Source: Novosphingobium barchaimii LL02 (GTDB lineage Bacteria; Pseudomonadota; Alphaproteobacteria; Sphingomonadales; Sphingomonadaceae). Taken from it: a stretch of 64,000 nucleotides of DNA. A model generated the notes under the pieces. The model was not told the DNA's origin. It searched no databases and worked only from the letters and a program-made list of their open reading frames with translations. Shown one piece after another: positions 15,318-64,000 of this stretch. The position numbers and the translations under genes are program-made. Position 1 is the first letter of the stretch. Every line of letters begins with the position of its first letter. The stretch is taken from positions 5,001 to 69,000 of the forward strand of contig NZ_KQ130453.1 of assembly GCF_001046635.1 (NCBI RefSeq). Direction: 5' to 3'.

Positions 15318-16952
<1,635 letters not shown>

Positions 16953-20154: not shown

Positions 20155-20209
20155 GGCCCGCCGGTCGCCGCCCTCCGGGGCGACGCCGGCGAGCCGGTGC
20201 TCGATCAGA

Positions 20210-24110: not shown

Positions 24111-25720
24111 CAGGCTACCTCTGCCAACGGCACCAAGGGCACCCAGTTCCAAGGCAGCAATTCCTCGATCCGGTTGATCTTATGATCATGGATACGGCCG
24201 AGCACGTCGGCGAGATAAGCCTGCGGATCGAGTCCGCTCATCTTGGCACTTTCAATAAGCGTCATGGCCCGCGCCAGGGTTTCAGCGCCTGCTTCGGAGC
24301 CGGCGAAGAGCCAGTTGCGTCTTCCTAGACCAATAGGTCTCACGGCTCGCTCAGCGGCATTGTTATCGATGGCGACGCGCCCATCCTCGGTGAACAATGA
24401 GAAGGCTTGCCAGCGACCCAAGCCGTAACGAATAGCGCTGGCCAAGTCGCCCTTGACGGGGATGCGGGTGAGTTGCTGCTCGGCCCAGGCGCGCAACGCC
24501 TCGAGTTTGGGTTTGCTATGCTCCTGGCGGACGGCACGCCGAACATCGGCAGGCTTCCCGGCGATTTCGCGTTCAATGTCATACAACTGGCCGATGCGAT
24601 CGAGGGCTTCTCGCGCTATCGGGGATTTGTTCGCTTTCCAGATGTCGTGGAAGTCACGCCGCCAATGGGCGAAGCAGGCAGCTTCCCGGAAGCGCGGTTC
24701 GCCGTCCGCGCCGGGCTCATAGAGCTTCGCATATCCCTTGTAGGCGTCGGCCTGGAGAATGCCGCTCGCATTGCAAAGGTGGTTTTGCACGTGCTCCGCC
24801 TTCCAGTTGGGGGCAAAGCGATAGACCACACCCGGCGGTGCCGGCCCGTTCCACGGGCGCTGATCGCAGACATAACCCCAGATCCTGCCTTGCTTTACGC
24901 CCTTGCCGAGCCCCTTGGCTCGCCTTGTGTGGTCCAGCACCTGGATCGGTGTATCATCGGCGTGGATGACGGTGCTGGCCAGAACCGAAGCCTCAATACG
25001 CTCGATCAGGGGCTGGAGGCTTCGCATCGCCTTGCCGCACCAGTCAGCCAGCGTGCTGCGGGGAATGTCAGCGCCCATGCGGGCAAGGATTTCGTTCTGC
25101 CGGTACAGCGGCAAGTGATCGTCGAATTTTGAGACGAGCACGTAGGCCAGCAGGCTGCTTCCGGCCATGCTGCCGGGGATCGGGCGGCTCGGAGCCGGCA
25201 CCTGCACCATTTTCTCACAGCTGCGGCAGGACTTTTTCGGCCGCGCTACCTCGATCACCTTCAGCCTGGCTGTGATCATCTCGAGGATTTCGCTCACGTC
25301 CTCGCCGACGAGGCGTAACTCGCCCCCGCAATCGGGACAAGCGCTGCCCGGGTCGAGTTCTTTTCGCTCGCGCGGCGTGTCGGACGCAACGCGCGGACGC
25401 CGGGCCATGGCCCGTGCGCTGTCTACATGCGCAGTGGCTTCATCCTCTTCGACATCACTCGGCAAAGCGACGGTTTGTGCCGCAGCGACCAGAATGTCCT
25501 CTAGCGCCAGTTCCAGCTGCTCGATCTCGCGTTCGATCTTTTCCGAGGATTTGCCGAAGGCTTGTTTCTTCAGTTTTGCAATGCGCAGACGCAGTGCCTG
25601 AACCACCAGATCATGTGCACGGACCGTTGCCGCCAGCTTCGCGTTTTCCGCCTGCAAGTCGGCGATTATCGCCTTCAGCAAAGCCGGGTCTTCGGGAAGA
25701 TTTTGCGCCGCGCTCAGCAT
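24110..25720 (-). CDS. tnpC: IS66 transposase TnpC
   Basis: Main transposase of the element, 536 residues. An N-terminal leucine-zipper-like coiled coil ([20 protein letters not shown]) is followed by a zinc-finger-like CPDCGGEL and CRSCEK pair, then the DDE domain with [30 protein letters not shown] and [20 protein letters not shown]. All catalytic positions are present. ATG 25720 ([12 protein letters not shown]) is preferred over longer starts that have no family similarity. Confidence 0.93.
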
Positions 25721-25782
25721 GATCCTGCTTACCAGCCAGGGGCAGGAATATCCATGAAAACAAGTAGATTCAGGAACAAAAA

Positions 25783-26130
25783 TCAGCCCACATGGGCAGG
25801 CGGCGCGCCCCAATTTGGGCGTCTCCAGTCGATGCCTTCCCACAGCATTGCGAGCTGGGCTGAGGTCAGCCGCGCAGTCCCGTCCGCAGCAGAGGGCCAA
25901 GGAAAACGGCCACGCTGCAAAACCTTGTAGTACAGGCAAAATCCCTGCCCATCCCAGTACAGCAGCTTCACCCTGTCCCCGCGACGTCCTCGAAAAGCGA
26001 ACACCGCGCCGCTTGTCGGTTTCTGTCGCAGCACCGTCTGGGCCAGCTGACCAAGGCCAGAGATGCCTTTGCGCATATCAGTGACGCCGCAGGCCAGATA
26101 AACCCGCACGCCAGTTCCCGGCCCGATCAC
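25783..26130 (-). CDS. tnpB: IS66 accessory protein TnpB
   Basis: A 115-residue IS66 Orf2 protein: [54 protein letters not shown] and [16 protein letters not shown] are the family core. It is required with TnpA and TnpC for full transposition. It overlaps tnpA by four bases and precedes tnpC after a 62-base gap. Confidence 0.95.
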
Positions 26131-50196: not shown

Positions 50197-51041
50197 TGCC
50201 GGGCCTCCCTGCGCACGACGACAAGCCGCGCCGTTTCACCGGCGTCGAGACGCACCCGGTCGAGGGTGAGCGAGAAAATCCGCTCCCCGAGCACGGGCTC
50301 GACCAGCAAGCGTTCGTCGAGCGTCACCGGCGTGGCCGCGCGCAGATGATATTCGGAAGCGGAAAGCCCGGCGCCCTCGACCGCGATGCGCCGCCCTTCG
50401 GTAATCGACAGGCCCGGGATCGCCGCTATGCCGATCGTGTCGCCGGATGGCGCGACCTCGCTGAAAGAGGCAGGGACGCGATCGTCGAGCAGCGACAGGG
50501 TGATCGAGACAGCACGGTCCTCGTCGGCGAGCGCCGCCATGAGCTCGTTGTTCGCCTGCGCCCGCTGGCGGGTACCGGGCATCAGCACCACCGTCTGCGC
50601 CGGAATCTCCGCCGGCTCGGCATAGAGCGGATAGGTGGCGCCGTTGCAGCTAACGAAGAATTCGGAGGGCTGCGTCACATAGGTGCGCGTCACCTGGCCG
50701 GCATCGTCGATCTCGCGGGCCAGGAACTTGATCCAGGCGTCCGCGCCGCCTTTCTCGACGGCGAGACCTTTCTCGGCCGAGAATTTGATGTCCTCGATCT
50801 CGCCGCCCTCGCACACGACATGGTTGATGTCGCGGTTGGACAGGCGGATATGGCTGGTCTGGTCGGGCAGCGCATGGATCGTCTGCGCCGATGCCGGCGC
50901 TGCCAACGGCGCTGCGCCAAGCAGCAGGAAAAGCGTCAGGGCGCGGCGCATCGGCGAGCCGCAGAATTTTCTTGTTTCCGTGATTTCCGAGCCAGCAGAC
51001 GCTGCCGCCTGCTTCGAAATCACTTCAATGGGTTTCGGCAT
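50193..51041 (-). CDS. traK: TraK, secretin-like core protein (VirB9-like)
   Basis: Periplasmic core protein of 282 residues. The signal peptide MRRALTLFLLLGAAPLAAPA begins at residue 31, so the true start may be ATG 50951; ATG 51041 has a GGAG seven bases upstream inside traE. TraK segments are DQTSHIRLSNRDINHVVCEG, YVTQPSEFFVSCNGATYPLY and a C-terminal beta domain. It links TraB and TraV in the outer-membrane complex. Confidence 0.92.
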   Translation of the reverse strand: MPKPIEVISKQAAASAGSEITETRKFCGSPMRRALTLFLLLGAAPLAAPASAQTIHALPDQTSHIRLSNRDINHVVCEGGEIEDIKFSAEKGLAVEKGGADAWIKFLAREIDDAGQVTRTYVTQPSEFFVSCNGATYPLYAEPAEIPAQTVVLMPGTRQRAQANNELMAALADEDRAVSITLSLLDDRVPASFSEVAPSGDTIGIAAIPGLSITEGRRIAVEGAGLSASEYHLRAATPVTLDERLLVEPVLGERIFSLTLDRVRLDAGETARLVVVRREARQ

Positions 51042-51660
51042 CGAACTGCTCCTCGGAAAGACGCGTCAGCCAGAAGCGGCCGTTTTCGATGGCGTAGCCG
51101 ATGCGTAAAATGCCGCGGAATTTGCGGATCACGCCGCCGATGACGCGCACCTTCTCGACAGGGACCACGATCTCATGCGTGGTCCATCGCACCGGCTGAT
51201 CGCCCCGGATATAAGTGGCGATCGACAGGGTCGGGTTATTCGCCAGTTCGTCGAGCACGGCATTGAGACTGTCGCGCATGGCGCCGTAGGCGGACGGATG
51301 AACAAGCCCGAGCAGCTCCTGGAACTGGCGGTCCGCCGAATAGGCCGACCAGGTGCCCGACAGCGCGACAATGTTGCGCGTCATCGCGACGATATAGGCC
51401 TCGGACGGTTTGTTGCCCGAGACATGGAGATCGCCGGTGGCCCCGAAGGGCACGATGACGGTCCGGGCATTCTGGTTGGTCGTGTAGATCACCGCGCCCA
51501 GCACCGCGGTGACGCCGAACATCCCGGTGATGGCGACCTTGAGCAGCCGGTTCTCCTCGAAGAGGTTCGCCGAGCCCTGCAGGTAGCGATGGATGCCGAA
51601 GCTGGCGGGCTTGCCGTGCAGCACGTCCTCGTTCGTTCGCTTGCGCGTGAAGATGCCCAT
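51025..51660 (-). CDS. traE: TraE, VirB5-like assembly protein
   Basis: A 211-residue F-type TraE. The start is ATG 51660 (MGIFTRKRTNEDVLHGKPAS). A membrane helix (VAITGMFGVTAVLGAVIYTT) near residue 50 precedes a periplasmic domain with LSGTWSAYSADRQFQELLGL and KVRVIGGVIRKFRGILRIGY. It is needed for pilus formation. It overlaps the traK 5' end by 17 bases. Confidence 0.9.
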   Translation of the reverse strand: MGIFTRKRTNEDVLHGKPASFGIHRYLQGSANLFEENRLLKVAITGMFGVTAVLGAVIYTTNQNARTVIVPFGATGDLHVSGNKPSEAYIVAMTRNIVALSGTWSAYSADRQFQELLGLVHPSAYGAMRDSLNAVLDELANNPTLSIATYIRGDQPVRWTTHEIVVPVEKVRVIGGVIRKFRGILRIGYAIENGRFWLTRLSEEQFDAETH

Positions 51661-51665
51661 GGCGC

Positions 51666-51932
51666 CTACTCGAAGAAGCGGGTCTGCGTGGGACCCGGAT
51701 AATGAGGGAAGGAAACCAGGCCCCAGCGCCACGCGAGGTGCGCGAGATAGCCCCTGGGCTTGGTCCGCTTCCACGGGATGAAAAGGAGAAGGGCAGCGAT
51801 GAGCGCCCAGCCGACAAGTCCGCCCACGATCGCGGCCACGAACACGCTCGAGGTCGCGAGCAGGAACTCGTCCGATCCGAACCACAGGATCTGGACCGGC
51901 CGATGCAGATATTGCGGAAGGCGTTCGTCCAC
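51666..51932 (-). CDS. traL: TraL, VirB3-like inner-membrane protein
   Basis: About 88 residues, beginning at GTG 51932 (VDERLPQYLHRPVQILWFGS), which has AAGGG upstream; an ATG at 51956 would add eight residues containing the ribosome site itself. Two membrane helices (FLLATSSVFVAAIVGGLVGW and WALIAALLLFIPWKR) are followed by GYLAHLAWRWGLVSFPHYPG, typical of TraL. It ends six bases before traE. Confidence 0.9.
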   Translation of the reverse strand: MDERLPQYLHRPVQILWFGSDEFLLATSSVFVAAIVGGLVGWALIAALLLFIPWKRTKPRGYLAHLAWRWGLVSFPHYPGPTQTRFFE

Positions 51933-52063
51933 TTGCCCTTCTCCTCCTGGCTTCATGACACCTGTGAAGGTGCCGGTTTCCGGAGACCGACCATCGGTCC
52001 CCAGCGCTTTGCCGGTGCGAATGCGCCTGGCCGGTCAGCCGGCGCGCAGCCGCACACAGCGTC

Positions 52064-52378
52064 TCAGACGACCATCCCGAAGGTCTGGAGAATGGAGTCC
52101 GCCTTGATCAGGCAGACGGCCGCGACGATGGTCGGGATGCCGATCATGATGTTCGAGAAGAGGCGCGAGACGCCGAACAGGAAGGCAGCGACGCCGCCCA
52201 CGAAGCCGAGCGGGCCCTTCACACCCTGGTTCACGACGATATCGTAGATATCGTAGCCGAGGTCGCCTTGGGCCGGCGCCGAGAAGGCGTGGGCGGGAAC
52301 GCCCACCAGGGTCATCGCGCCCAAAGGGAGACCGAAATTGGCCACCGCCAGGGCCTTGTTACCGAGTTTACGCATCAT
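52064..52378 (-). CDS. traA: TraA, pilin precursor
   Basis: A 104-residue F-type pilin. The leader (MMRKLGNKALAVANFGLPLG to AHA) is cut near residue 30, leaving a mature pilin with two hydrophobic helices (KGPLGFVGGVAAFLFGVSRL and NIMIGIPTIVAAVCLIKADS) separated by a short polar loop. ATG 52378 has GGAG eight bases upstream. It lies between dsbC and traL. The S26 peptidase at 38338 is a candidate processing enzyme. Confidence 0.85.
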   Translation of the reverse strand: MMRKLGNKALAVANFGLPLGAMTLVGVPAHAFSAPAQGDLGYDIYDIVVNQGVKGPLGFVGGVAAFLFGVSRLFSNIMIGIPTIVAAVCLIKADSILQTFGMVV

Positions 52379-52569
52379 GGCATTGCTCCAAAGAGAGCCG
52401 TCCAACAAAGCCTGCCGGCATCGACAGAAGATCGGTGTCGGCCGGGGCGTCGGTGGACGGCTCCGAGAGCCCGCCGCCGCCGGCATCCGGTTCATCCGCC
52501 GGGCCGAATCGGCCCAGCCTGGATGCCCTCCGAAAGAGATCGCCGCTTCCCGCGACGGTGCGTGTGAAC

Positions 52570-53520
52570 TCAGCGCGGCGCATCGGTCGCGGCCTTCGCC
52601 AGCGCGGGTTTGGCATGCCGGTCGAGGAACGCCTCGAGCTCCGCCTGCTGGAAGCCCGAGATGAGCTTGCCGTCCGCGATGAGGGTCGGCGTTCCCGAGA
52701 CACCCACCTTGGCGACCAGTTCGGCATCGGCGGCGACCTTGTCGTGGCCGGCCGCGCATTGGCGCAGAACCGGCGGGGTCTGACCCAAATAGGCGGCCCT
52801 GAACGCTGCCTCGCGATCTGGCGAGCACAGGATGTGCTCCGCCCTGGCCGCTGCGGTCGCGTGGATGCCGCTCACGAAGAAGATAAGCCGCCGGACCGGT
52901 TTGCCTTCGGCCGCCTTCGCGGCCCAGAAGCGGTCGAGCGCCTGGCAGTAGGGGCAGTCGGGATCGGTGAACTCGATCACCGTTGGCGCATTGACCGGCC
53001 CGATCGCCAGCCCCTTGGCGGGATCGATCGCCTTCAGGCGCCGGCTGGCGCCCTGTTCCTGGGCGAGCGCCGTCAGGTTCACGCCATTGCGGTCGTAGAC
53101 CGTGGCGAACAGCAGGTGCTCGCTCCGCGGTGCGAAATAGATGATCTTGCCGCCTGCGGTGGCTTGATAGAGCGGACCTTCGACCGGTGCGGGACCGAAG
53201 TCCTCGAAGCGCAGATTTGTGAAGGTTTGGTGCAACTGCTGCTCGGCTTCGGCGTGCGCGTTGGCCAGGGGGTCACCGTGAGTCTGCGCTCGCGCAGCAT
53301 CTTGGGGCTGGGCGGTGACAAGTTCCGGTTTACCGGCATGGACAGGGGCAGCCGACATGAGCGCCAGCGCTGCGACACCAGCTACACTACCAAATAAACC
53401 CGGCCGCTTCGGCCATGAGGAAGTCGTGACTGAGCCTTTCCGCCGCGCCGCAGCGCGCCCGGTCCCAGGCACAAGATGTAACCTGACTGTCATCGCCAAT
53501 TCAAGAGGATTGTGGAACAT
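52570..53520 (-). CDS. DsbC-family thiol-disulfide isomerase of the transfer operon
   Basis: Secreted 316-residue protein. The N-terminal dimerisation-like domain (FEDFGPAPVEGPLYQATAGG, KIIYFAPRSEHLLFATVYDR) and the thioredoxin domain with CPYC at residues 189-192 (FTDPDCPYCQALDRFWA) and the cis-Pro loop VGVSGTPTLIADG match DsbC and TrbB-type isomerases. It should repair disulfides in Cys-rich TraN and TraU. ATG 53520 is favoured by AAGGAGG nine bases upstream. It is the first gene of the leftward operon. Confidence 0.9.
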   Translation of the reverse strand: MFHNPLELAMTVRLHLVPGTGRAAARRKGSVTTSSWPKRPGLFGSVAGVAALALMSAAPVHAGKPELVTAQPQDAARAQTHGDPLANAHAEAEQQLHQTFTNLRFEDFGPAPVEGPLYQATAGGKIIYFAPRSEHLLFATVYDRNGVNLTALAQEQGASRRLKAIDPAKGLAIGPVNAPTVIEFTDPDCPYCQALDRFWAAKAAEGKPVRRLIFFVSGIHATAAARAEHILCSPDREAAFRAAYLGQTPPVLRQCAAGHDKVAADAELVAKVGVSGTPTLIADGKLISGFQQAELEAFLDRHAKPALAKAATDAPR

Positions 53521-53827
53521 TGGCACACGCCTCCTTCTTCCGGCGCGTGCGGTTCCGCGCGCCGGCTTTCGTCATGCGGTTCGGGCTGGGAGCGTGGTTT
53601 GGGCTGCGCTCGCCTTCCCCGTGGTGATCGGATGGATGAAGGATGAAGCGAAGAAATAACCCGCACAATAGGCAGGGTACTGAGATGCCGGTTCGGAAAT
53701 ACAGTGCCGAAATCGGCACGTCAGTTCCGCTTTTCGTGCCCTGCCACGTGGATTTTACCGTCTTGTCTGTGGGAGCGCTGTCGCACGACGGTTCGCTTCG
53801 ATTGCGAATCAGCCAGGGAGTCTCGGC
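53521..53827. other. Divergent promoter region of the transfer operon
   Basis: About 300 bases between the leftward dsbC and a rightward small gene. Short open frames exist (for example 53643-53831), but none has a ribosome site or protein-like content I trust. It must contain the promoter of the transfer operon; no clear -35/-10 pair or palindrome could be picked out by eye. Confidence 0.35.
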
Positions 53828-54250
53828 ATGAGGACTTCGAGAACATACAAACTGCAGCTCTCGGGGCAGGGCATCGACCAATTCCTCGCCTGCCACTGCC
53901 GGGTCGCACGCCTGGCGAAGGAATTCATCCCCTATGGCATGACCCTCTATGTCGCCATGAGCCTGCTCGACGCCAGCGACCCGGCCGATATCGCTGCCGA
54001 ACTGGAATCCCCGGCGTGCAATGCGCTCGGAGGTTCCTCGAACCGCTTCGTGGGAACGACGTCACACCTTGCCGATCTCGTTGAGCAGGTTGGCGCGCGC
54101 CTCGCCGATAGTGGCCATTGTGGTCGATCCATAGCGACATGGCGCCTTTATAATGCCGGGCTCAGTCTGCTGCTGAGTTCCGAAGACGGGGAGCTACAGG
54201 CCGCCTTTCGAAGAGCCGCCCAGACCATTCCAGTCCGGCGATCTCGCTGA
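53828..54250 (+). CDS. Hypothetical protein, 140 residues, at the start of the lasso region
   Basis: A soluble protein, starting at ATG 53828 with GGGAG upstream: MRTSRTYKLQLSGQGIDQFL, RVARLAKEFIPYGMTLYVAM and a C-terminal RSIATWRLYNAGLSLLLSSE helix. Family unknown. It is followed by the 17-bp palindrome and the XRE gene. It may belong to the regulators or to the transfer region. Confidence 0.55.
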   Translation: MRTSRTYKLQLSGQGIDQFLACHCRVARLAKEFIPYGMTLYVAMSLLDASDPADIAAELESPACNALGGSSNRFVGTTSHLADLVEQVGARLADSGHCGRSIATWRLYNAGLSLLLSSEDGELQAAFRRAAQTIPVRRSR

Positions 54251-54282
54251 TACCGAATATCTGTAGAGATTATTTGAATAAT

Positions 54283-54299
54283 GCTTTCACCATGAAAGC
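54283..54299. promoter_or_regulatory. 17-bp palindrome, operator copy 1
   Basis: GCTTTCACCATGAAAGC has two perfect 7-bp arms around CCA. It lies 93 bases upstream of the XRE gene. The same site, 15 of 17 bases, recurs upstream of the lasso precursor at 55509-55525. A further pair of short arms (CGTTAC and GTAACG) follows at 54299-54327. It is probably bound by one of the two regulators encoded next to it. Confidence 0.6.
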
Positions 54300-54391
54300 G
54301 TTACCGGATTGACGTTTGGCGTAACGAACAACATTTTCTCCGAACTGGGCTGTGCACGGGAGCTTTGAGCCATTGGCAGGGAGATCTTGTC

Positions 54392-54802
54392 ATGCCGCTT
54401 CAGGCGATGCCCACTGCACGCGATCCCTCGGTGCTTGCGACGATCAAGCTGATGTCGGGGAGACGGATAGAAATGCAACGGCGGACCGAAAAGATTACGC
54501 AGGAAGACTTTGCGGCCCGCGTCGGCATCGGCGCGCGCTGGCTGCGCGAGATCGAGGCCGGCAACCCCAAGTCGCGGCTCGACGATCACTTCCGCTGCGC
54601 CCATGCCCTCGGGCTATCGACTGGGCATCTAGTCATTCCCCTGCTGTTCATGGAACATCAGCGGGTTTTTCCCCGCGGCTTACTCGAAGGAGACCTCTCG
54701 AAGCTCGAAACCGTCTGCATAGATGCTATCGCCCGGCACAACCTCGACACGCTCTCGCACCAGCTCTTCGCACGCGATGCCGACCAAACTCCCGACGACT
54801 GA
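54392..54802 (+). CDS. XRE-type helix-turn-helix regulator
   Basis: A 136-residue protein with an HTH near residues 30-65: RRTEKITQEDFAARVGIGAR then WLREIEAGNPKSRLDDHFRC. The C-terminal part, HALGLSTGHLVIPLLFMEHQ, is not a known ligand domain. ATG 54392 (MPLQAMPTARD) has GGGAG about eight bases upstream; an ATG at 54365 is less likely. It is followed three bases later by the GntR gene, so they form one operon with the palindrome in front. Confidence 0.75.
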   Translation: MPLQAMPTARDPSVLATIKLMSGRRIEMQRRTEKITQEDFAARVGIGARWLREIEAGNPKSRLDDHFRCAHALGLSTGHLVIPLLFMEHQRVFPRGLLEGDLSKLETVCIDAIARHNLDTLSHQLFARDADQTPDD

Positions 54803-54805
54803 ACG

Positions 54806-55444
54806 ATGATGTCGCCGGGAATGCGCCAGGGTGAGAAAGTCTATGCAGACCTCAAGGAGGCTGTGCTCTCGGGGCGCCATGCGCCCGACACGGAGCTATC
54901 GATCGCGGCTATCGCCGAGGATATCGGGGCGACCGGCTCTCCGGTCCGCGATGGCCTGCATCGCCTTTTTGGAGAGGGGCTCCTGCAGATGGGCCCGCAT
55001 CGGGGATTTAGAGTGCCCAGCTGGAGTGCAGATGCGCTGCGGGACTGCTACACATGGCACGGTCATCTCGTTCGCATGGCCATCAAAACGATCGGCCCCA
55101 AGGCGCTCCGGGAACCGGTGGCGCCCGAGGGATGGCTGACCGACTACAGCACTCCCGATCGCATCGTCGCGACCGCCGAGCGTATGTTTCTCACGCTGGC
55201 GAATAGGTCCCCATCCAACGAGCTCGTGGCTGCTGTCGCCAACGCGGGTGAGCGTCTGCGCACTATCCGACTCGTCGAAACGGGACGCTGGTCGGATTGC
55301 GGCGACGAGCTCGTCTCTGCCAATGTATTGGCAAGATTTGAGCCCGGAAGCAGGCTTCTGGAGGCACTCTGGAACTATCACCGTCGCCGAATTCGGGCCG
55401 CCAACATGCTTTCTGAAGCGCTGAAATCGCGATTAAAAGGCTGA
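54806..55444 (+). CDS. GntR-family regulator (FadR-like) of the lasso locus
   Basis: A 212-residue regulator. The winged helix reads VYADLKEAVLSGRHAPDTEL, SIAAIAEDIGATGSPVRDGL and HRLFGEGLLQMGPHRGFRVP, and a helical FadR C-terminal domain follows (ADALRDCYTWHGHLVRMAIK). GntR regulators are found beside several lasso clusters of sphingomonads. It is co-directional with the precursor gene 160 bases downstream and is a candidate for binding the 17-bp palindrome. Confidence 0.85.
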   Translation: MMSPGMRQGEKVYADLKEAVLSGRHAPDTELSIAAIAEDIGATGSPVRDGLHRLFGEGLLQMGPHRGFRVPSWSADALRDCYTWHGHLVRMAIKTIGPKALREPVAPEGWLTDYSTPDRIVATAERMFLTLANRSPSNELVAAVANAGERLRTIRLVETGRWSDCGDELVSANVLARFEPGSRLLEALWNYHRRRIRAANMLSEALKSRLKG

Positions 55445-55508
55445 AATCACCGTATAAAATGACGATAGATGCATGCGAAAGATAATTTCGCAATATAGGT
55501 CATTTATT

Positions 55509-55525
55509 AGTTTCACCATGAAAGC
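55509..55525. promoter_or_regulatory. 17-bp palindrome, operator copy 2
   Basis: AGTTTCACCATGAAAGC matches the copy at 54283-54299 in 15 of 17 bases, including the whole TTTCACCATGAAA core. It lies 80 bases upstream of the lasso precursor start, where an operator for the biosynthetic genes is expected. The flanks on both sides are AT-rich in both copies. Confidence 0.6.
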
Positions 55526-55604
55526 AAAAGCGGCTGAATATATTAGAGTTCCGGCTTAGCCTTTCTCTCGCCACGATGAGTGTGGCGAATTGAAGGAGGT
55601 AAGT

Positions 55605-55739
55605 ATGGAACGCGAATACGAAGCCGCCGAAGGCAATATTTTCGAACTGGGTGCCGCCAGCGAACTGACGAACGGAGTGGGTATCGGCACTACCGATCTT
55701 CCCGCGCGGCAGCAGTCGCCTGGTATTCTCGACGACTGA
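55605..55739 (+). CDS. Lasso peptide precursor (44 residues)
   Basis: The gene encodes MEREYEAAEGNIFELGAASE followed by LTN and a 21-residue core. The leader has the conserved Thr at the position two before the core (Thr22), and the core starts at Gly24 with GVGIGTTD, so an isopeptide bond from Gly1 to the Asp8 side chain would give an 8-residue ring. The tail is LPARQQSP and ends GILDD. The ring size and GILDD end resemble syanodin I as I remember it. An excellent ribosome site AAGGAGG lies five bases before ATG 55605. B and C genes follow directly. A different processing site cannot be excluded. Confidence 0.9.
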   Translation: MEREYEAAEGNIFELGAASELTNGVGIGTTDLPARQQSPGILDD

Positions 55740-55753
55740 TACTTCCCCCAAGA

Positions 55754-55781
55754 CCCGGTCCGGCTACTGTGCCGGGCCGGG
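55754..55781 (+). promoter_or_regulatory. Stem-loop between lasso precursor and B gene
   Basis: CCCGGTCCGGC pairs with GCCGGGCCGGG around a six-base loop, 11 pairs with one G-U. It starts 15 bases after the precursor stop. It has no T-run, so it probably acts as a partial terminator or 3' stabiliser that raises the precursor-to-enzyme ratio, as proposed for other proteobacterial lasso operons. Confidence 0.65.
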
Positions 55782-55801
55782 CACTGGCCAGGGAGACAAC
55801 C

Positions 55802-56473
55802 GTGACCGACCTGATTCTCAATCCCGATGTCGGATATTGCAAGCTTAACGGAAGGCTGTACTTTCTCGACATAGGTCGTGATAGGTATTTCAAAATCACG
55901 CCCGCACTCGAGGGTGCGGTAGAGTTTCTTTCCGAGGGGAAAATTATTACCGTCGAATTGCGCCGTGATCTGGTTGCAATTGGTTTGCTCGTTCCTGTAT
56001 CCGCGAAGAGGAAATTCACGAGCTCACGCGGGCCTAGTCTTCCCAGGACGGCTGTTGGTAAACGCTCCTCGGCAAAGCCGAGACTATGGAGCGGACTGCT
56101 TGGCATTCCGCGAGCCTTCTTGTTCCTAGCGTTGTTCCATTTGGCCGTCGGCAGGCTTGGACTCAAGAAGTGCCTTTCACTTCGGACTGTGCGGTCTTGC
56201 CAGAGCTGCGAAGATGCGCTGCCATCCAAGCTTGAAGCGGTTTTGTCACCGTTCTTTCGGGCAAGCCGGTTCTTCAGCCGGAGGGACAAATGTCTTCCCG
56301 ATGCGCTTGCCCTCCGGGCCTATCTCGCCCGCAGCGGTGTCAAGGCTGCTATAGTATTCGGAATCCAGGCCGATCCATTCCTGGCCCATTGTTGGGTTCA
56401 GCACGGTGATACAGTCATCGGCCAGGAGCTCGAGGCGGTACGCCCCTTTCATCCGATCATGGCAGTCTCATGA
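55802..56473 (+). CDS. Lasso peptide B protein (RRE fused to leader peptidase)
   Basis: A 223-residue fusion. Residues 1-70 (VTDLILNPDVGYCKLNGRLY, FLDIGRDRYFKITPALEGAV) are a PqqD-like RiPP recognition element that binds the leader. The C-terminal half is a transglutaminase-like Cys protease with Cys164 in SRRDKCLPDALALRAYLARS, His196 in DPFLAHCWVQ and Asp203. It cuts the leader before Gly24 of the precursor. GTG 55802 is the start, with GGGAG about seven bases upstream; longer frames overlap the precursor gene. Its stop overlaps the C gene (ATGA). Confidence 0.92.
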   Translation: MTDLILNPDVGYCKLNGRLYFLDIGRDRYFKITPALEGAVEFLSEGKIITVELRRDLVAIGLLVPVSAKRKFTSSRGPSLPRTAVGKRSSAKPRLWSGLLGIPRAFLFLALFHLAVGRLGLKKCLSLRTVRSCQSCEDALPSKLEAVLSPFFRASRFFSRRDKCLPDALALRAYLARSGVKAAIVFGIQADPFLAHCWVQHGDTVIGQELEAVRPFHPIMAVS

Positions 56474-58164
56474 ACACCAGCTATCTCATTCGCTTGCCCC
56501 ACCGCCCATCGTCAGGCGCAGCCTTTCCATTGACGCAAGCTTCATGGGAAGACGATCTTAGCCACAGTTCGGATCTGGCTGTCGAGTGCCTATCCTCTGG
56601 CACAATGATGATAATCGGAGATTACTTCCGCAAGGGCGGCGAACGTTCCCAGAATGCCTTCGACGCCTCGCTGGAAACTGAGATCGAAGAGTTCTGCAAG
56701 CTCTATTGGGGAAGGTTTGTCCTGATTGGCTATGACCCAGCTCGAGGCATCGTAGCGGTATATCGAGACCCGTCCGGAATGATTCCCTGCTACTATCATC
56801 TTGGCCACGATAGCGTCGCAATTGGTTCTGATCTCTACGAGATCACGGCTCGTTCTGGAGCTCGCATTGGGATAGACTGGGCCGGCGTGGCGGGTGCGCT
56901 GCTGGCTTCAGATTTGCGATCTACACGTACCTGTCTCGATGGCATATCCGAAATCGCACCCGGAGAATTGGTCGTCATTACCCAAAGCGGAACAACATCC
57001 CGGTTACTGTGGGATCCAACTTCTACACTCGGGCGCAACTCGAATTGCACATTTGACGACTGCGCCGAACAATTGAAGAAGACATTATCTGCGGTGGTTT
57101 CCTCGTGGTGCGAGCGTTATCCCAAACCTGCAATATCCGTCTCGGGGGGCTTTGATTCCTCTTTGCTCGCATCGCTTGCAAAGCAGGCGGGCGAGACCGG
57201 TTTGCAGCACTTCTACACGGGTTCACCGACAGGTGATGAGCGGATATATGCGCGCGCGCTGGGAGATTACCTGGATCGGCCAATCGACTATGTACTCGCC
57301 GCACCAGATGCGAACGATATCTTTGAAAATCGATCCGCGAGGCGTCCTCGCCCGACGGCCTGCTCATTCACTCAGGTCTTTGATGACGCGGCGGAAAAAT
57401 ACTCCCGATCAATCGGCGCAACGGCGCATTTCAATGGCGGGGGCGGAGACAATGTCTTTGGAAAATTGCATTCGGCTTTTCCGCTCGTGGACTGCCTTCA
57501 CCATCGTTCTAACCTCGGAAATCTGGTTAAATCAGCTGTCAATATATCGGACGTTACTGACGTGGCGCTGCCCGCCGTAATCGGGCAGGCGCTGGCAGCG
57601 ATTTTGAAACCAACTCGTGCCACGGCCTCCTGGCAGCATCAATCCAGTTTACTCGCGCCGTACGCAATTGCGGTGGGCTGCGCGGAAATTCACCCCTGGA
57701 TGGAGTCTGCAGCGAATGCATTGCCGGGACAACGACAACATCTACGCAATGTAGCTCGCGGGATCGCATCGACCGATTACCTCAATATCGAAAGCGACCT
57801 GCCGACTATTTATCCGCTGCTCTCACAACCTGTTGTCGAGCTGTGCCTCTCATTTCCAACCTGGTTCTGGTTCGAATACGGGCGCGATCGATCTCTCGCG
57901 CGGACAGCCGCGGAATCACTGCTGCCGGAGACGATTAGAAATCGAACGGGAAAAGGCGCCTTCGACGGGCTCCTCTACAATATGTTGATGCCGCACAAGC
58001 ACATGATATTCGACAACCTCGAAAATGGTGTCCTTGCCGGCCAAGGATTGATAGATAACAAGAGAATTCGAAATCTCAGAAATTCCGGTTTGCTGTCCCA
58101 AGCAGACTGCGCACGAATATTGCAAGTGCATGATGTCGAGGTCTGGTGTAGGCAACGGTGCTAG
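56470..58164 (+). CDS. Lasso cyclase C (asparagine synthetase-like)
   Basis: A 564-residue enzyme that adenylates the Asp8 side chain of the core and closes the macrolactam with Gly1. An N-terminal glutaminase-like domain, without the catalytic N-terminal Cys of true synthetases, includes YRDPSGMIPCYYHLGHDSVA. The ATP domain has the PP-loop AISVSGGFDSSLLASLAKQA at about residues 221-240, then HFNGGGGDNVFGKLH and a C-terminal RNRTGKGAFDGLLYNMLMPH. It overlaps the B gene and converges with the isopeptidase gene (four-base overlap). Confidence 0.95.
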   Translation: MNTSYLIRLPHRPSSGAAFPLTQASWEDDLSHSSDLAVECLSSGTMMIIGDYFRKGGERSQNAFDASLETEIEEFCKLYWGRFVLIGYDPARGIVAVYRDPSGMIPCYYHLGHDSVAIGSDLYEITARSGARIGIDWAGVAGALLASDLRSTRTCLDGISEIAPGELVVITQSGTTSRLLWDPTSTLGRNSNCTFDDCAEQLKKTLSAVVSSWCERYPKPAISVSGGFDSSLLASLAKQAGETGLQHFYTGSPTGDERIYARALGDYLDRPIDYVLAAPDANDIFENRSARRPRPTACSFTQVFDDAAEKYSRSIGATAHFNGGGGDNVFGKLHSAFPLVDCLHHRSNLGNLVKSAVNISDVTDVALPAVIGQALAAILKPTRATASWQHQSSLLAPYAIAVGCAEIHPWMESAANALPGQRQHLRNVARGIASTDYLNIESDLPTIYPLLSQPVVELCLSFPTWFWFEYGRDRSLARTAAESLLPETIRNRTGKGAFDGLLYNMLMPHKHMIFDNLENGVLAGQGLIDNKRIRNLRNSGLLSQADCARILQVHDVEVWCRQRC

Positions 58165-60209
58165 TTAGGGTTCTCAGGCACTACGGAAAATTGGGTTTTA
58201 AGCCAGTCGATATTGCGCAGATAAATGGACAGTCGATGAGAGGCCGACGTTTTTACGTGTCCTTCGTTGGGGTAGACGTACATATCTATCGGCCATCCGC
58301 GATCCTTGAGATTGCGATATGTCATGAGCGCCATCCGGTACTCGTCCGATGATGCCTGTATGAGGACGGGCACGGGCCGAGCGGCAGAGGCGCCGATCAA
58401 GGAGCCTTCCTGCCAGAAGAGTTGGCTCTCGTCTTGCGAACGGGGATAGCCTATGCTGGTGTAGAAGCTGTACAGACCATCCCCTGCAACGGCCAACGTT
58501 GACGCAGCCTCGCAGCAGGTGCTCAGGATCGCCGCGGAAAATAGTGTGGAGTTCGAAAGCGCAAAAGTCGCTGTCGATGCGCCATCACTCAATCCGGTGA
58601 TCGCTACCCGCTTGGCATCGATGATCCCTTCGTCGGCAAGCTGTACGATGATCGAGTTAAGCGATGAAAGATTGCTTTTGCGATCGCCCCACCCTTTGAT
58701 GGACGCTTTCATGCTCGCGAGTTCGTCGCCTGCATTCTGCAACGAACCATACCATGGAGGGCGATTAAAGCTGAGAACGGCAAAGCCTTGGGCAGCGAGA
58801 GGCTGAATGGGATACTCGTCGCCCGTTCCGCCGCGCAGGAAACCTCGAGAGTCGTATTGGACAATCACGAGAGGGAGCTTCGCGCCCCGATGATATCCAG
58901 GTGGGAGCACAAGGTCGCCGAACGTCGCAATCCCGAAATCGTTGGCCCACTCCAGGCGCCGCACTTCCCCGAGGGAAAAGTGCGCGAAATCCGGATTAGG
59001 CTCGAAGAGGGGCGCGCGACCGCCATCATTAGGAGATATCGCCACTATTTTACGCGGATTTGTCGACGTTTCCTGCGCGCAGATCAGCCGATCGTCGGCC
59101 ATACGACATCCAAACAGAGCGTCGGTCGTGCTTAGAAGCAGACGCGGGGCGGCCGTACCTGGCTGCCAGGTGTAGAATTCTGTCCGACTGTTTCCGAACC
59201 CGGTTCGCCGCTGATATAAAAGGCCTTTCCCCGTGGTCCACCAAAACATCGCGATGTTCGAGCAAGTCTCCCAATGACAGGTCAGTTGTCGCGCGCCGAC
59301 GCTGACGTGGAGTTCGGATTTCCCGGCGGAGCCATCTCCGGCCTGCGTCGTCCAGGCGCTCCGAGATCCGGCGGGAATCTGAGCAAATGCCAGACTGCCC
59401 TTGGGCCCGTTGCTGCGGGGGCGCAGAGCATCCACATCACGAACGTCGAACTCTTTCGGACGCCCGCTTTCCAAATCGACCGCCTGATCGACCGACGGGA
59501 TGGCAGACGAAAGTAAGGGCCGATCGCTGGAGAGGGGCCAGAAGCGATCGTCATAATGATACCCATTGCGACCTTCCGCCGTGATTTTTTCTAGCGCTGC
59601 GGTTTCGCCCACTCGGCTTGTGAAGAGAATGCGTTTCCCGTCCGACGACCATGCAAGGGCTTGGATGTCCACCGGGCTGATGAATATCTGGCGAACCGAA
59701 GATGTGGCGTGATCGTAAACCCAGATTTCCGATCCCGAGCCCCTCACCTTGGTGTAGGCAAGGTGAGCACCGGAAGGGGACCAGCTGATGAATGTTGCTT
59801 TGGGCGTTCCCACGGGAATTTCCGCCAAGCCGTAGATGTCACCCTTGGCAGACACGATATCGCCTCCGTCATCCACGACGTGCGGCGATCGCTTGGGATC
59901 GGTCGGCACCAACACGATTGACGTGCAGTATGTGTCGTTGTCGGCATCAGCCTGCCTGAGACGAAGTGCGACAATATCTCCGCGTGGTGAAAGTTCGAAC
60001 GGAGAGGTTGTTGGGGCTACTCCTAGGTCACCAAAATCTCTCAGAGCCGAGAGATCTCTGGCAGTGATAATTTCTCCCGGCTGTGTCGGCGATGCTCCAG
60101 GCGCAGGCAATGCGCAGCGATTTGCAAAAGCATGCCCCGGAAACGCGATAGAGGAGAAAGCGAGCAGCGCAAACATCTTTGCACGAGAAACTGATCTTAG
60201 GCGTGTCAT
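58161..60209 (-). CDS. Lasso peptide isopeptidase (S9 prolyl oligopeptidase fold)
   Basis: Secreted enzyme of 682 residues with a signal peptide (MFALLAFSSIAFPGHAFA). A seven-bladed propeller-like half (SWSPSGAHLAYTKVRGSGSE, LAWSSDGKRILFTSR) precedes an alpha/beta hydrolase with Ser541 in ITGLSDGASTATFALS, Asp622 in QASSDEYRMALM and His651 in YPNEGHVKTSASH. This matches AtxE2-type isopeptidases that hydrolyse the isopeptide bond of the cognate lasso peptide. It is downstream of the TonB receptor in the same direction and convergent with the cyclase. Confidence 0.92.
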   Translation of the reverse strand: MTRLRSVSRAKMFALLAFSSIAFPGHAFANRCALPAPGASPTQPGEIITARDLSALRDFGDLGVAPTTSPFELSPRGDIVALRLRQADADNDTYCTSIVLVPTDPKRSPHVVDDGGDIVSAKGDIYGLAEIPVGTPKATFISWSPSGAHLAYTKVRGSGSEIWVYDHATSSVRQIFISPVDIQALAWSSDGKRILFTSRVGETAALEKITAEGRNGYHYDDRFWPLSSDRPLLSSAIPSVDQAVDLESGRPKEFDVRDVDALRPRSNGPKGSLAFAQIPAGSRSAWTTQAGDGSAGKSELHVSVGARQLTCHWETCSNIAMFWWTTGKGLLYQRRTGFGNSRTEFYTWQPGTAAPRLLLSTTDALFGCRMADDRLICAQETSTNPRKIVAISPNDGGRAPLFEPNPDFAHFSLGEVRRLEWANDFGIATFGDLVLPPGYHRGAKLPLVIVQYDSRGFLRGGTGDEYPIQPLAAQGFAVLSFNRPPWYGSLQNAGDELASMKASIKGWGDRKSNLSSLNSIIVQLADEGIIDAKRVAITGLSDGASTATFALSNSTLFSAAILSTCCEAASTLAVAGDGLYSFYTSIGYPRSQDESQLFWQEGSLIGASAARPVPVLIQASSDEYRMALMTYRNLKDRGWPIDMYVYPNEGHVKTSASHRLSIYLRNIDWLKTQFSVVPENPN

Positions 60210-60251: not shown

Positions 60252-62825
60252 TCAAAACTCTTTGGCGAGCGTGATGCTCATAAATCGCCCAACCGCTGAG
60301 AAATTAGTCGAGTCATAGTTTGCGTAGTATGTGTAGCCTCCGCTGGGGGCGGCGTAGGGTGGCTTTTTGTCGAAAATGTTCTGCGTATTGACTGTCAGGC
60401 TGGTGCCGGAGAATGCCCCCGACCGAGCCGGCGACTTGTATATCATCGAGAAGTCGAAAGTCGTCTGCCGAGAGAGACGAGTGTATGGCTCGGTCCGATT
60501 ATCTGTGATGCCTGCTATATGACTGATGTAGAGGAGGGCCGAAGATGAACCATCGGTCCAGCCAACGCTGGCCCGTGCTTTGAACCTCGCTGGATTGAAA
60601 ATGGTGCCTGCCAGCTGCATCCAGCCTGCATCGGAAGTTAGCTCCTGCTTGGACCAAAGCCAGGCGGCGTTCGCATTGAACATGAATGCCGATCCGGAAT
60701 CCGTGTTGAGCCTGTAGTCAACGGAAAGATCTACGCCTTCTATGCGCTGTCGTACCGCGTTTGTATTTCGATCATGCAAGATTGCGACAACATTCTCTAT
60801 CACGGAGGAACCGGAGTAGTTGTAGAATTGGACAGAGTTCGCGATTATGCTCTTGATTGCTGCGGCATTGGGATCGTAAGTCACGAAATCCGAGAAGCTG
60901 GCATCGGAGAGAGCTCTGAAAATGGCCGTCCCGGCTACGGGCTGGACCACGCGATCCCTGTAATCGACATGGAAGTACGTCGCATTCAGGCGCAGTCCAT
61001 CAATAGCTCGAGGGTGCAAAGTGGCTGTCGTGGACCATGAAGTTGCTTTTTCAGGCTTGAGGTTTTTGCTCCCGCCGGTATCGACCAGCAAAGTAGATCC
61101 ATTAGGAAATCGTTCGCCGCCAAAATAATTTGCCTGGTAGAGGTAGCTGTAATTGGTGGCAAATTGGTCGTAAAGGCTAGGTGCCTTGAAAGACTTCCCC
61201 CATGTGCCTTTGAGCTCGAGATCGTCCGAAATTCCGTAGATAACGCCGAGCTTGGGTACGAGTACGGATGCGATTTGCGGATAATGTTCGAAGCGCAACG
61301 CTGCATCGAATTCCAGCTTCTTCATGAATGGAATATTTTGCCCGGGGGTGACAAGAGGAATTACGGTCTCGGTGAAGCCGTAATAGCTGTCTACCGAACC
61401 GTTGGAGTCCGGAGAAGTTGCCGCGTAACGAACCGATTTGTGGCTATTGTACCGATAGCCACCACCGGCGACCACTTGTATCGGGGCCCCGTTGATATCA
61501 AACAGCGGGCCAGAGGCATAAGTCTCTACGCCGACCAATTCATTGCAATAGCAACCGCGGACATGGCTCATCGTGTTTCCATCTGAGACCCATGCCTGAT
61601 CGAACTTGGTCCGATCTCGGCCATAGGTGCTCGACAGATGCAAGTCCCAATCGGCGCTCACGGCAATTCGGAGCGATGGCGTTACGGAATAGGAATCGCT
61701 TTTCGGCGTGTTCTGGTAGACATACTGAGGCGATTCTGCATAAGACTGAAATGAAGTCCTATGGCTGTACGTTGCGTCTAACGAAAAATTGATCGATGGC
61801 GAGATGCGGTGATTTAGTGCCAAGATTGCGCTGGTTTTCGATATTCGCGGAAAGAGGGTGTTGCCTTCGGGCATATAGCCGGTGAAAGTTCTATCTTCGG
61901 AGTTTATTTCGGAATTGCGATCATAGCTGAGCGCGGCCATGACATTTCCAGAGGCCCAGCTCTTACCCGCAACAACGCTATATTGTTGCTGAAAATCGCC
62001 GCCGGAAGTTGCCCCACCTATAGTGCTGGAGATCGTGGCGCCTTCATAGTTTCGCTTGAGGATGACGTTCACTACGCCGCCGACAGCGTCGGTGCCGTAG
62101 ATTGCGGAGGCCCCATCTGGCACGATTTCTACTCTGTCGACCGCCGCAAGAGGTATGGCACTGAGATCGACCGCCTGCACAACTGATCCGTAAGCGAGGC
62201 GGTGGCCGTTCAGCAACGTCAGCGTCGCGTCGCCGCCCAAACCGCGAAGGTTTGCCGACGAACCGGAGGACAAGTTAATGTTGTTCGAACCTACCGCGCC
62301 GGAAAGAACTCCGGGGTTCTGACCGCCGCTGAAATTCTGAGGTAGCGACCCGATAGCTTGTCCGAGGTCGGTTTGCCCGGCCAGTTTGATAGAATTTGCG
62401 TCCAAGCGAATTGTTGGCGAGGCAGACTCTGCTTTGGACAGATGAGAGCCTGTTACGACAATTTCGGAATTTTCACTGGCCTCGTTTTCCGCCGCGACCG
62501 ATGCTTGCGGCCGGTGGACTGTTCTTACAATTAAGGCTCCCTCGATGACTTCCGCAACGAGATTAGTACCTTTCAATAGTTCCCGTGCGGCTTCAGCTGG
62601 CAAGAAGTGCCCTCTCAGGCGCGGGGACCTTTTACCGCGTAGGGGATCAGCGGGGGCCGAGAATTCCAAGCCACTTTGACGGGCGATGGCTCGTAGTGCC
62701 TCCGTGAGGGACTGGGCAGGCAAATCAAAATCCAGTACCTGATCGGATTGTGCCAGTGCAGGTGTAGCGCCGATCAACGCGCAAGCCCAAACACCGACGA
62801 AAAAGCCGTTACGAACCACTCGCAT
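60252..62825 (-). CDS. TonB-dependent receptor with STN signalling domain
   Basis: Outer-membrane transporter of about 857 residues. After a signal peptide (RNGFFVGVWACALIGATPAL) comes the STN domain LDFDLPAQSLTEALRAIARQ with LKGTNLVAEVIEGALIVRTV, then the plug (NLSSGSSANLRGLGGDATLT, RVEIVPDGASAIYGTDAVGG) and a beta-barrel ending in RFMSITLAKEF with terminal Phe. STN domains contact FecR-type anti-sigma factors. The likely ligand is the lasso peptide, imported for cleavage by the isopeptidase. ATG 62825 is preferred over 62867 by the signal peptide and a GGGGG site. Confidence 0.92.
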   Translation of the reverse strand: MRVVRNGFFVGVWACALIGATPALAQSDQVLDFDLPAQSLTEALRAIARQSGLEFSAPADPLRGKRSPRLRGHFLPAEAARELLKGTNLVAEVIEGALIVRTVHRPQASVAAENEASENSEIVVTGSHLSKAESASPTIRLDANSIKLAGQTDLGQAIGSLPQNFSGGQNPGVLSGAVGSNNINLSSGSSANLRGLGGDATLTLLNGHRLAYGSVVQAVDLSAIPLAAVDRVEIVPDGASAIYGTDAVGGVVNVILKRNYEGATISSTIGGATSGGDFQQQYSVVAGKSWASGNVMAALSYDRNSEINSEDRTFTGYMPEGNTLFPRISKTSAILALNHRISPSINFSLDATYSHRTSFQSYAESPQYVYQNTPKSDSYSVTPSLRIAVSADWDLHLSSTYGRDRTKFDQAWVSDGNTMSHVRGCYCNELVGVETYASGPLFDINGAPIQVVAGGGYRYNSHKSVRYAATSPDSNGSVDSYYGFTETVIPLVTPGQNIPFMKKLEFDAALRFEHYPQIASVLVPKLGVIYGISDDLELKGTWGKSFKAPSLYDQFATNYSYLYQANYFGGERFPNGSTLLVDTGGSKNLKPEKATSWSTTATLHPRAIDGLRLNATYFHVDYRDRVVQPVAGTAIFRALSDASFSDFVTYDPNAAAIKSIIANSVQFYNYSGSSVIENVVAILHDRNTNAVRQRIEGVDLSVDYRLNTDSGSAFMFNANAAWLWSKQELTSDAGWMQLAGTIFNPARFKARASVGWTDGSSSALLYISHIAGITDNRTEPYTRLSRQTTFDFSMIYKSPARSGAFSGTSLTVNTQNIFDKKPPYAAPSGGYTYYANYDSTNFSAVGRFMSITLAKEF

Positions 62826-62910
62826 TTCATCCCCCATTGCCTGGATGGCGCGTTGTGTGACGCGCATACAAAGCTTGACGGGAGAAATTCAGTGACGAGC
62901 ATTGCGACGA

Positions 62911-63948
62911 TTATTTCGTCAGCACGAGCCTGTCTGACCGTTGATTTTCAACAATAAGGCCGAGCGCCCGGGCAAGATGCTTCGCCACACTTTCGGGATT
63001 GCGGATATGCAGTTCTGCACTCACCCGCATCGCGGCAATTTCCGGAGAAGCTGCCACCAGCTTGACGTCGGAATAGTGGTTCACCTCGGCGAGGATCACA
63101 CTCACGGCTTCATCGTCGTAGCTCTTCACGCCGGTTGTCCATTGCTCGTCGTTAGCCGGCGCCGGTTCGGTGATAGCATTGCCGGTTACCGTGGGTGTGC
63201 CAGAGTAGCGTATCCTTTCGCCTGGTTGAAGGTAGCTCTTCGCCGCCGGCTCCGAGGGCTTGCGTGCCTCGCATGGCGGAGTAACTGCGACACGCCCTTC
63301 GTACAGTACCACATTCATCTGGCAATGCGCGCGACGTTCCACACCGAACCGCGTGCCGAGCGCTGTGGTAGTGCCGCCATCAGCGGTGACGGTGAAAGGG
63401 CGCGAAGCGTCATGAGCAACAGCGAAGATGGCGCGGCCGTGATCGAGCGTGACGTCGCGGTGGTCTCGATGCATCCGCACGAGCAAGCGACTATCGGTAT
63501 CGAGCGTCACGACCGAGCCATCCACAAGCGTGATATTTCTAACCTCACCTTTCCGGGTCGTGAAGATAAGCGGCGGGTCGTCACGCTTCCCGTCGGAGGA
63601 TGCAATCGGCGTAGGTGTGGAGGGCAAACGCAGATTCTGGTCGAGCACAAAAGGCGCTCCCAGCAAAAGGATGGTGGCGAGCGAGGCGGCGATCGCCAAC
63701 TTTGCCGAGGGCCTTCGGGGACGGCTGTCGCTCTTGTGACTGTTCTGTCGTTCGCGAAATCTTACTGATGCGGGATCAACGATGTTCGATATCGCGGCGT
63801 CGGCGATGTCGAATGCGGCCTGGTGCTCGGGCGACTGAGCGCACCAACTCCTAGCAGCAGGCTTTCGTGCCGGGTTCTCGCGGACCGCCAGCGCCCAGCG
63901 GCGTGCCTGCTGGCTGAGGGTGAGCGAGCCCGGTTCTTCGTCGGTCAT
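62911..63948 (-). CDS. FecR-family sigma factor regulator
   Basis: Inner-membrane protein of 345 residues. The N-terminal DUF4880-type helix bundle (SQQARRWALAVRENPARKPA, RSWCAQSPEHQAAFDIADAA) binds the sigma factor, one membrane helix (KLAIAASLATILLLGAPFVL) follows, and the periplasmic FecR domain has VRNITLVDGSVVTLDTDSRL, DVTLDHGRAIFAVAHDASRP and the C-terminal ALGLIVENQRSDRLVLTK that contacts the STN domain. It overlaps the upstream sigma gene (ATGA) and lies 85 bases before the receptor. Confidence 0.93.
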   Translation of the reverse strand: MTDEEPGSLTLSQQARRWALAVRENPARKPAARSWCAQSPEHQAAFDIADAAISNIVDPASVRFRERQNSHKSDSRPRRPSAKLAIAASLATILLLGAPFVLDQNLRLPSTPTPIASSDGKRDDPPLIFTTRKGEVRNITLVDGSVVTLDTDSRLLVRMHRDHRDVTLDHGRAIFAVAHDASRPFTVTADGGTTTALGTRFGVERRAHCQMNVVLYEGRVAVTPPCEARKPSEPAAKSYLQPGERIRYSGTPTVTGNAITEPAPANDEQWTTGVKSYDDEAVSVILAEVNHYSDVKLVAASPEIAAMRVSAELHIRNPESVAKHLARALGLIVENQRSDRLVLTK

Positions 63949-64000
63949 TGCCCTTCCATCCCATCCAGCAGATGGTCCAACACCTTGAATATCTTTCTCT
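63945..64000 (-). CDS. FecI-type ECF sigma factor, C-terminal end only
   Basis: The last 17 codons are visible: KIFKVLDHLLDGMEGQ, then TGA overlapping the fecR start (ATGA at 63945-63948). Position and overlap make a FecI-like sigma factor very likely; the sequence itself is too short to prove it. It would direct transcription of the receptor and isopeptidase genes. Confidence 0.55.
   Translation of the reverse strand, partial: RKIFKVLDHLLDGMEGQ

Follow-up and report, generated by a model that had tools for sequence, protein, structure and literature searches.

The DNA analysed here, called the window, is a stretch of 64,000 nucleotides (nt) from Novosphingobium barchaimii LL02 (contig NZ_KQ130453.1, positions 5,001 to 69,000). 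It carries a lasso peptide cluster next to an F-type conjugative transfer (tra) operon. The lasso unit extends from about 53.8 kb as far as the end of the window. It comprises the precursor gene (A), the maturation genes B and C, an isopeptidase, a TonB-dependent receptor, a FecR-type regulator and two upstream regulators, an XRE-like helix-turn-helix (HTH) protein and a GntR protein (Table 1). A preliminary description of this DNA had seen a cluster of three genes; A, B and C stand, and the extent was incomplete, as the isopeptidase, TonB receptor, FecR, HTH and GntR genes had been missed. Judged from sequence, peptide and cluster are new members of the known isopeptidase-type (benenodin-family) lasso clusters, with a predicted threaded product. 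In comparisons with related loci, the core, B, C, the isopeptidase and the receptor barrel behave as one exchangeable cassette, while the leader, the regulators, the STN domain, FecR and the sigma factor stay with the flank. We propose, at somewhat less than even confidence, that this lasso module works as a private peptide signal of the conjugative element. Gene neighbourhoods in relatives suggest that the peptide serves as a message and not as a weapon.

The border of the cassette is seen in pairwise alignments with related lasso loci (numbers with L). The window and L014, L017 and L018 share 90.6–91.0% identity from 51032 to 55675–55680, a segment with the tra start, HTH, GntR, promoter and leader, and the alignment stops at the leader/core border (the core starts at 55674). 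Beyond this border, the core, B, C and the isopeptidase align only in short or 64–66% pieces. In L014 and L017, the alignment picks up again at 61963, between receptor plug and barrel, and continues with 79% similarity through FecR; the stretch of L018 ends before 61963. Window and L014 have identities of 0.99 (HTH), 0.92 (GntR), 0.82 (FecR) and 0.84 (STN) in the flank and signalling parts, and of 0.49 (barrel), 0.49 (isopeptidase) and 0.43 (core) in the cassette. Window and L012 lean the opposite way, with 0.76 for the core, 0.69 for the barrel, 0.54 for FecR and 0.58 for GntR. For the pair L049 and L060, the values are 0.95 (core), 0.79 (barrel), 0.34 (FecR) and 0.36 (STN). L018 combines a window-type flank (92.4%) with an L015-like cassette (80.2% from −93 to +4123; 69.9% further upstream). 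Of 55 pairs with flanks that align into the gene, 17 break off −3 to +9 nt from the leader/core border, and these come from at least three clades; in the remaining 38 the alignment extends further, by at least 23 nt.

The same division was found by partial correlation of identities over 52 loci. Barrel identity follows core identity once FecR is controlled for (partial r 0.331, p 0.0005), STN follows FecR once the barrel is controlled for (0.594), and the barrel follows the isopeptidase (0.682) and C (0.634). Trees of the signalling parts reject window with L012 (approximately unbiased (AU) test, p 0.0056) and L049 with L060 (0.00018), and trees of the specificity parts reject window with L014 (0.00034) and L012 with L016 (2e-35), for clades that were chosen after the identities had been seen, a point to be counted with the objections below. 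While the signalling parts are conserved, the peptide varies jointly with the receptor part that would bind it. In the pherotype loci agr and comQXP, one hypervariable stretch covers the peptide, its maturation enzymes and the receptor's ligand-binding part, with conserved signalling parts on either side, and the hypervariable core-to-barrel stretch of the lasso loci resembles this pattern. Unlike the lasso loci, with their lasso peptide, TonB receptor and FecR/sigma pair, agr and comQXP are Gram-positive, with other peptide chemistry and histidine kinases. As the barrel is exchanged together with the core, this receptor points to being the cognate one. Isopeptidases cleave their cognate peptide only (for sphingopyxin I, 1 of 24 tested; PMC9266682), which fits a matched core and barrel.

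The regulators link the cassette to two kinds of neighbour. In 76 loci with a GntR gene, with operons deduced from spacing, GntR is coupled to phyH of a luxI-phyH pair in 31 (28 by an identical 4-nt overlap); in 25, among them the window with a gap of 3, it follows the tra-side HTH gene at −1 to +17 nt. Each of the six tra loci in which no lasso genes were found still has an HTH homologue (37–48% identity) beside DsbC, so we count HTH as part of tra and GntR as part of the lasso module. Given this position of GntR next to regulators of tra or luxI, a private signal linked to transfer or density sensing is the most economical interpretation, and the conservation of STN, FecR and sigma with the flank is as expected of its output side.

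The main rival is a siderophore-like role, which we consider unlikely. The peptide would bind a metal or hydrophobic compound outside the cell and be taken up through the TonB receptor, the isopeptidase would free the cargo, and FecR and sigma would regulate uptake. The ferric-citrate system is laid out likewise, with an STN-type TonB receptor, FecR and sigma, and the idea of a carrier is named in a 2022 review (PMC9266682), in which the function of lasso peptides with an isopeptidase is described as enigmatic. A Sphingomonas mutant in a related cluster is reported to be deficient in phenanthrene use (PMC11006600); this favours a carrier, is not obviously explained by a signal and speaks against one. 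A shared cargo, however, would not need hypervariable cores that are exchanged with the barrel, and the coupling of GntR to luxI or tra genes is left unexplained.

As to the conjugative neighbour, the preliminary description had taken the adjoining operon as a possible means of spread. The operon is present on the minus strand at about 31.6–53.5 kb and looks like more than a vehicle: the junction recurs, and the lasso GntR gene lies directly behind the tra-side HTH gene. Among 72,556 plasmid records, 20 match the isopeptidase at E ≤ 1e-20, and nine match the window TraU at ≥80% identity. An isopeptidase lies about 14–15 kb from TraU in seven of these nine; all three of these that were inspected share the window's gene order, with sigma and FecR unannotated in one. 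The remaining two, pDC02 and pMSHV, carry tra, with no lasso genes found adjoining. When 25 kb of the window was compared with the plasmids, nine records matched, on the tra side. Other junctions were also met. The lasso module follows TraG, at the F-tra end, in Sphingomonas panacis, it is also at the F-tra end in L101, and it stands beside a trb operon on plasmid Lpl of Novosphingobium PP1Y. Six more inspected plasmid stretches lack transfer genes up to 9 kb from the match; luxI-phyH is found in two of them. On plasmid pCHQ1 of Sphingobium indicum UT26S (L001), which is typed as conjugative, a benenodin-family precursor at 75728–75868 adjoins a tra operon.

TraU was found in 59 of 249 sphingomonad genomes, sampled evenly across the family to which Sphingobium SYK-6 belongs. 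Twelve full-length matches, set apart by score, form the window-type group, and five of them (G001, G168, G175, G061 and G228) have adjoining lasso genes. None of the other TraU matches lies within 15 kb of an isopeptidase over cut-off, as read from the match lists of the 249 genomes. With lasso genes beside only part of the window-type tra operons, the module appears as an optional partner of one tra family.

The association with synthases of acyl-homoserine lactones (AHL) was studied in two samples. When genome contigs were scanned with an isopeptidase alignment, 287 relatives were confirmed, and the best 80 were kept; the alignment had replaced the cyclase as query, which gave 14 pattern matches, none confirmed. 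These best 80 of 287 have an F-type tra start in 24 cases, trb genes in 7 and a LuxI match in 41; at least one partner is present in 57, LuxI plus transfer genes in 15, and none in 23. The counts are lower bounds, since 14 of the 80 stretches do not reach 18 kb, and the sample is non-random, as it holds the sequences most like the window's isopeptidase. In the 249 genomes, 37 isopeptidase loci over the curated cut-off occur in 29 genomes, in which we located LuxI (PF00765) and TrbI/VirB10 (PF03743) and ran 200,000 random-position simulations. LuxI lies within 15 kb of 23 of the 37 loci (0.49 expected, simulation maximum 6) and TrbI within 15 kb of 9 (0.96 expected, simulation maximum 8); at least one of the two is found at 25 loci and both at 7. 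As a control, 31 FecR genes away from isopeptidases were taken from 12 of the 29 genomes, chosen for long contigs, and none has LuxI or TrbI within 15 kb. In the same 12 genomes, LuxI is near 12 of 17 isopeptidase loci and either partner near 13 of 17 (12/17 versus 0/31 for LuxI: Fisher 8.9e-8). LuxI is placed differently from locus to locus (about +4.4, −5.5, −9 and −13 kb), and this variety, together with that of the transfer genes, suggests that the association arose repeatedly. In sphingomonads, luxI-phyH and luxI-phyH-virB topologies have been described (PMC3704786, PMC4288048), and their luxR-luxI-phyH module is the one also found beside lasso clusters in relatives. The word lasso is absent from these two papers, and a coupled gntR and lasso cluster does not occur in the passages covered. 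We found no link of lasso peptides to LuxI, type IV secretion or conjugation, no GntR coupling and no cassette exchange in the open full-text literature, a search to which most subscription papers, including many original lasso reports, were external.

Lasso clusters, AHL synthases and conjugation genes could also share accessory islands by hitchhiking, with neighbourhoods that have no functional meaning. Neither partner lies within 15 kb of 12 of the 37 isopeptidase loci, no lasso genes were found beside six of the twelve window-type TraU genes (with a seventh on a contig too short), and relatedness of the loci by descent inflates the counts, so that the association probabilities overstate the evidence. 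These three points favour hitchhiking and weigh against a private signal. We nevertheless regard hitchhiking as quite improbable, since none of the 31 other FecR genes is near either partner, several different junctions exist (F-tra start, F-tra end and trb operon) and GntR is tightly coupled in 56 of 76 loci. Also, a palindrome, a candidate operator, is common to all nine loci of the window clade, some of them nearly identical: it has 0 mismatches before the HTH gene in 9/9 and 0–2 mismatches before the precursor in 9/9.

Further results count against the private signal. GntR is coupled to neither partner in 20 of the 76 loci. The core tracks FecR after control for the barrel (r 0.222, p 0.0005), and some common descent therefore contributes. 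The palindrome was not found at the tra promoter, so no regulatory site common to the peptide operon and the tra promoter was seen, and it is absent from the more distant tra-lasso loci searched. One of the five tra-lasso loci, L099 (4616–9971), has a cyclase frame followed by IS21-like transposase genes, and isopeptidase and receptor were not found in that stretch.

If the lasso peptide is a private signal, it would leave the cell, bind the matching receptor barrel and trigger the STN-FecR-sigma output. It would then enter the periplasm and be linearised by the isopeptidase, which would end the signal. With GntR wired to tra, as here, or to luxI-phyH, as in relatives, the peptide would be produced according to transfer state or cell density, and cells carrying the same element would recognise each other. 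Conjugation is controlled by peptides or AHLs in other systems, by enterococcal pheromones and by TraR of Ti plasmids. As in these, a self-made signal would be linked with transfer genes, with control of tra by the lasso peptide as a hypothesis. A wider claim, held more tentatively, is that lasso peptides of the isopeptidase type act as pheromones, specific to a pherotype, for conjugative elements and AHL quorum-sensing loci of Gram-negative bacteria. Each would have an exchangeable cassette of core, maturase, cyclase, degrading isopeptidase and receptor barrel, plugged into a conserved STN-FecR-sigma output and into a GntR that shares a transcript with regulators of tra or luxI. This would be a class of peptide quorum sensing running through TonB receptors. 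With a private signal, lasso peptides would let sphingomonad plasmids sense kin elements; some of these plasmids carry genes for pollutant degradation (PMC4288048). The results make the function testable, as a likely receptor is named, barrel and core move together and the regulator is tied to conjugation or AHL operons.

The export step bears on a third alternative, a narrow-spectrum weapon, in which the peptide would kill related cells via their TonB receptors, the isopeptidase would shield the carrier and the plasmid would exclude rivals. Hypervariable cores would suit a weapon, and microcin J25 enters cells through a siderophore receptor (PMC11006600). Known isopeptidase-type lasso peptides except astexin-1, however, are without antimicrobial activity (PMC9266682), and it would make little sense for a carrier to encode the importer of its own poison. 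No ABC exporter was recognised among the window genes scanned, which counts against a weapon and also against a signal. We consider the weapon the least probable of the readings weighed here.

Table 1 Features of the lasso unit and the adjoining tra operon (window coordinates)
Feature	Position	Strand	Remarks
F-type conjugative transfer operon	31632-53526	-	TraG, TraH, TraF, TraN, TraU, TraC, TraV, TraB/TrbI, TraK, TraE, DsbC-like; Pfam
140-aa protein, family not recognised	53828-54250	+	adjoins tra in relatives
Palindrome GCTTTCA-N3-TGAAAGC, candidate operator	54283-54299	.	5' of HTH gene
XRE-like HTH regulator	54365-54802	+	kept with tra in relatives without lasso genes
GntR regulator	54806-55444	+	3 nt behind HTH gene
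Second palindrome copy, 2 mismatches	55509-55525	.	5' of precursor
Hairpin	55568-55588	+	directly 5' of precursor ribosome-binding site
Lasso precursor A	55605-55739	+	44 aa; leader 55605-55673, core 55674-55736
B (predicted leader-binding domain fused to cysteine protease)	55802-56473	+	GTG start 55802; family model, alignment, AlphaFold/Foldseek
C (asparagine-synthetase-like lasso cyclase)	56470-58164	+	passes Asn_synthase
Atxe2-family lasso isopeptidase	58161-60209	-	700.7 bits, cut-off 400
TonB-dependent receptor: STN-like N-terminus, plug, barrel	60252-62867	-	Pfam
FecR-type anti-sigma regulator	62911-63999	-	Pfam; reaches window end, 5' end may lie beyond

Precursor: The lasso precursor of the preliminary description, with a predicted 8-residue ring in a 21-residue core, is upheld. 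The calculated mass of the 21-mer minus one water is 2091.06 Da ([M+2H]2+ 1046.54). The precursor has Thr at position −2, Gly1 and Asp8, and the comparison with known lasso families that had been suggested placed it over the cut-offs of the NCBIfam benenodin model (36.5 bits, cut-off 33) and the Pfam Subterisin model (28.6 bits, cut-off 27). The core had been called probably uncharacterised, and no identical one occurs among the pattern-found precursors of L001–L091; the nearest is that of L012 (identity 0.76). The precursor has no match among the 72,556 plasmid records (tblastn, E ≤ 10) and none among PDB sequences. In seven loci (L003, L019, L032, L055, L070, L072 and L090), two to three precursor-like frames with differing cores lie near one lasso cluster. 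The cluster resembles those of astexin-2/3 with AtxE2, benenodin-1, sphingopyxin I, subterisin and sphingocin in A, B, C, a convergent isopeptidase, a TonB receptor, a sigma/anti-sigma pair and GntR before the precursor. GntR, precursor, isopeptidase, TonB receptor and sigma pair are almost constant in such clusters (PMC9266682). Unlike the known ones, the window has a new core, and its GntR gene immediately follows the HTH gene that belongs to an F-type tra operon.

B and C: A fused protease with a RiPP recognition element (RRE) and an ATGA-coupled cyclase had been described. The B2 model (NF033537, lasso_biosyn_B2; 69.1 bits, cut-off 33), the Asn_synthase call for C and the overlap of C with the end of B by ATGA at 56470–56473 agree with this. 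For the RRE, Pfam gave no call, even at E ≤ 10, and the assignment rests on a predicted structure with weak fold-search E-values. The AlphaFold model of B (predicted local distance difference test, pLDDT, 89.5) has as first Foldseek match the lasso B1-leader complex 6jx3 (probability 0.93, E 0.11); no match reaches E 0.001, and the top fold matches of the N-terminal domain are lasso B1 leader-binding proteins. In the triad of B, Cys164 and His196 are present in 38 of 38 aligned copies. The third position, which we take to be Asp as in McjB, is Asp in 27, Gln in 6, Glu in 4 and Gly in 1, and Gln in the window. As 11 of 38 copies are without Asp, this residue was not treated as defining.

Isopeptidase, receptor and FecR: The isopeptidase matches the AtxE2 structure 5txc at E 1.1e-110, and its Ser-Glu-His triad (S541, E623 and H651) is conserved in 11 of 11 aligned sequences. 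The STN domain of the window receptor scores under the Pfam cut-off; among ten related receptors scanned, STN is found at E ≤ 0.05 in nine and over the cut-off in seven. By analogy to L001 and L002, the sigma gene would lie past the window end. In four genomes (G040, G132, G215 and G166), no FecR was found near the isopeptidase, and three of the four have TrbI 3.2 kb away; the output side may therefore differ there.

Promoter region: A hairpin stem of at least 5 pairs before the precursor ribosome-binding site was found in 51 of 63 loci versus 17.8% of shuffles, with varying stem sequence, and RNA-level control is possible. An inverted repeat at 55474–55492 has one match in the window; 25 of 100 shuffles also have one. 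Rfam gave no match over 53.4–64.0 kb at E ≤ 1. The predicted GntR model resembles VanR-type and FCD-family repressors. A TTATAA-type palindromic motif stands 5' of the precursor in L028, L035, L044 and L046, which form one quorum-sensing-linked clade, and is a possible GntR operator.

In positions 1–30000 of the window, transposase-like frames (389–1609, 4826–6043, 9714–11054 and 24110–25939), a GroEL-like gene (15318–16937) and an Hsp20-like gene (19597–20268) were named by eye, without a family search.

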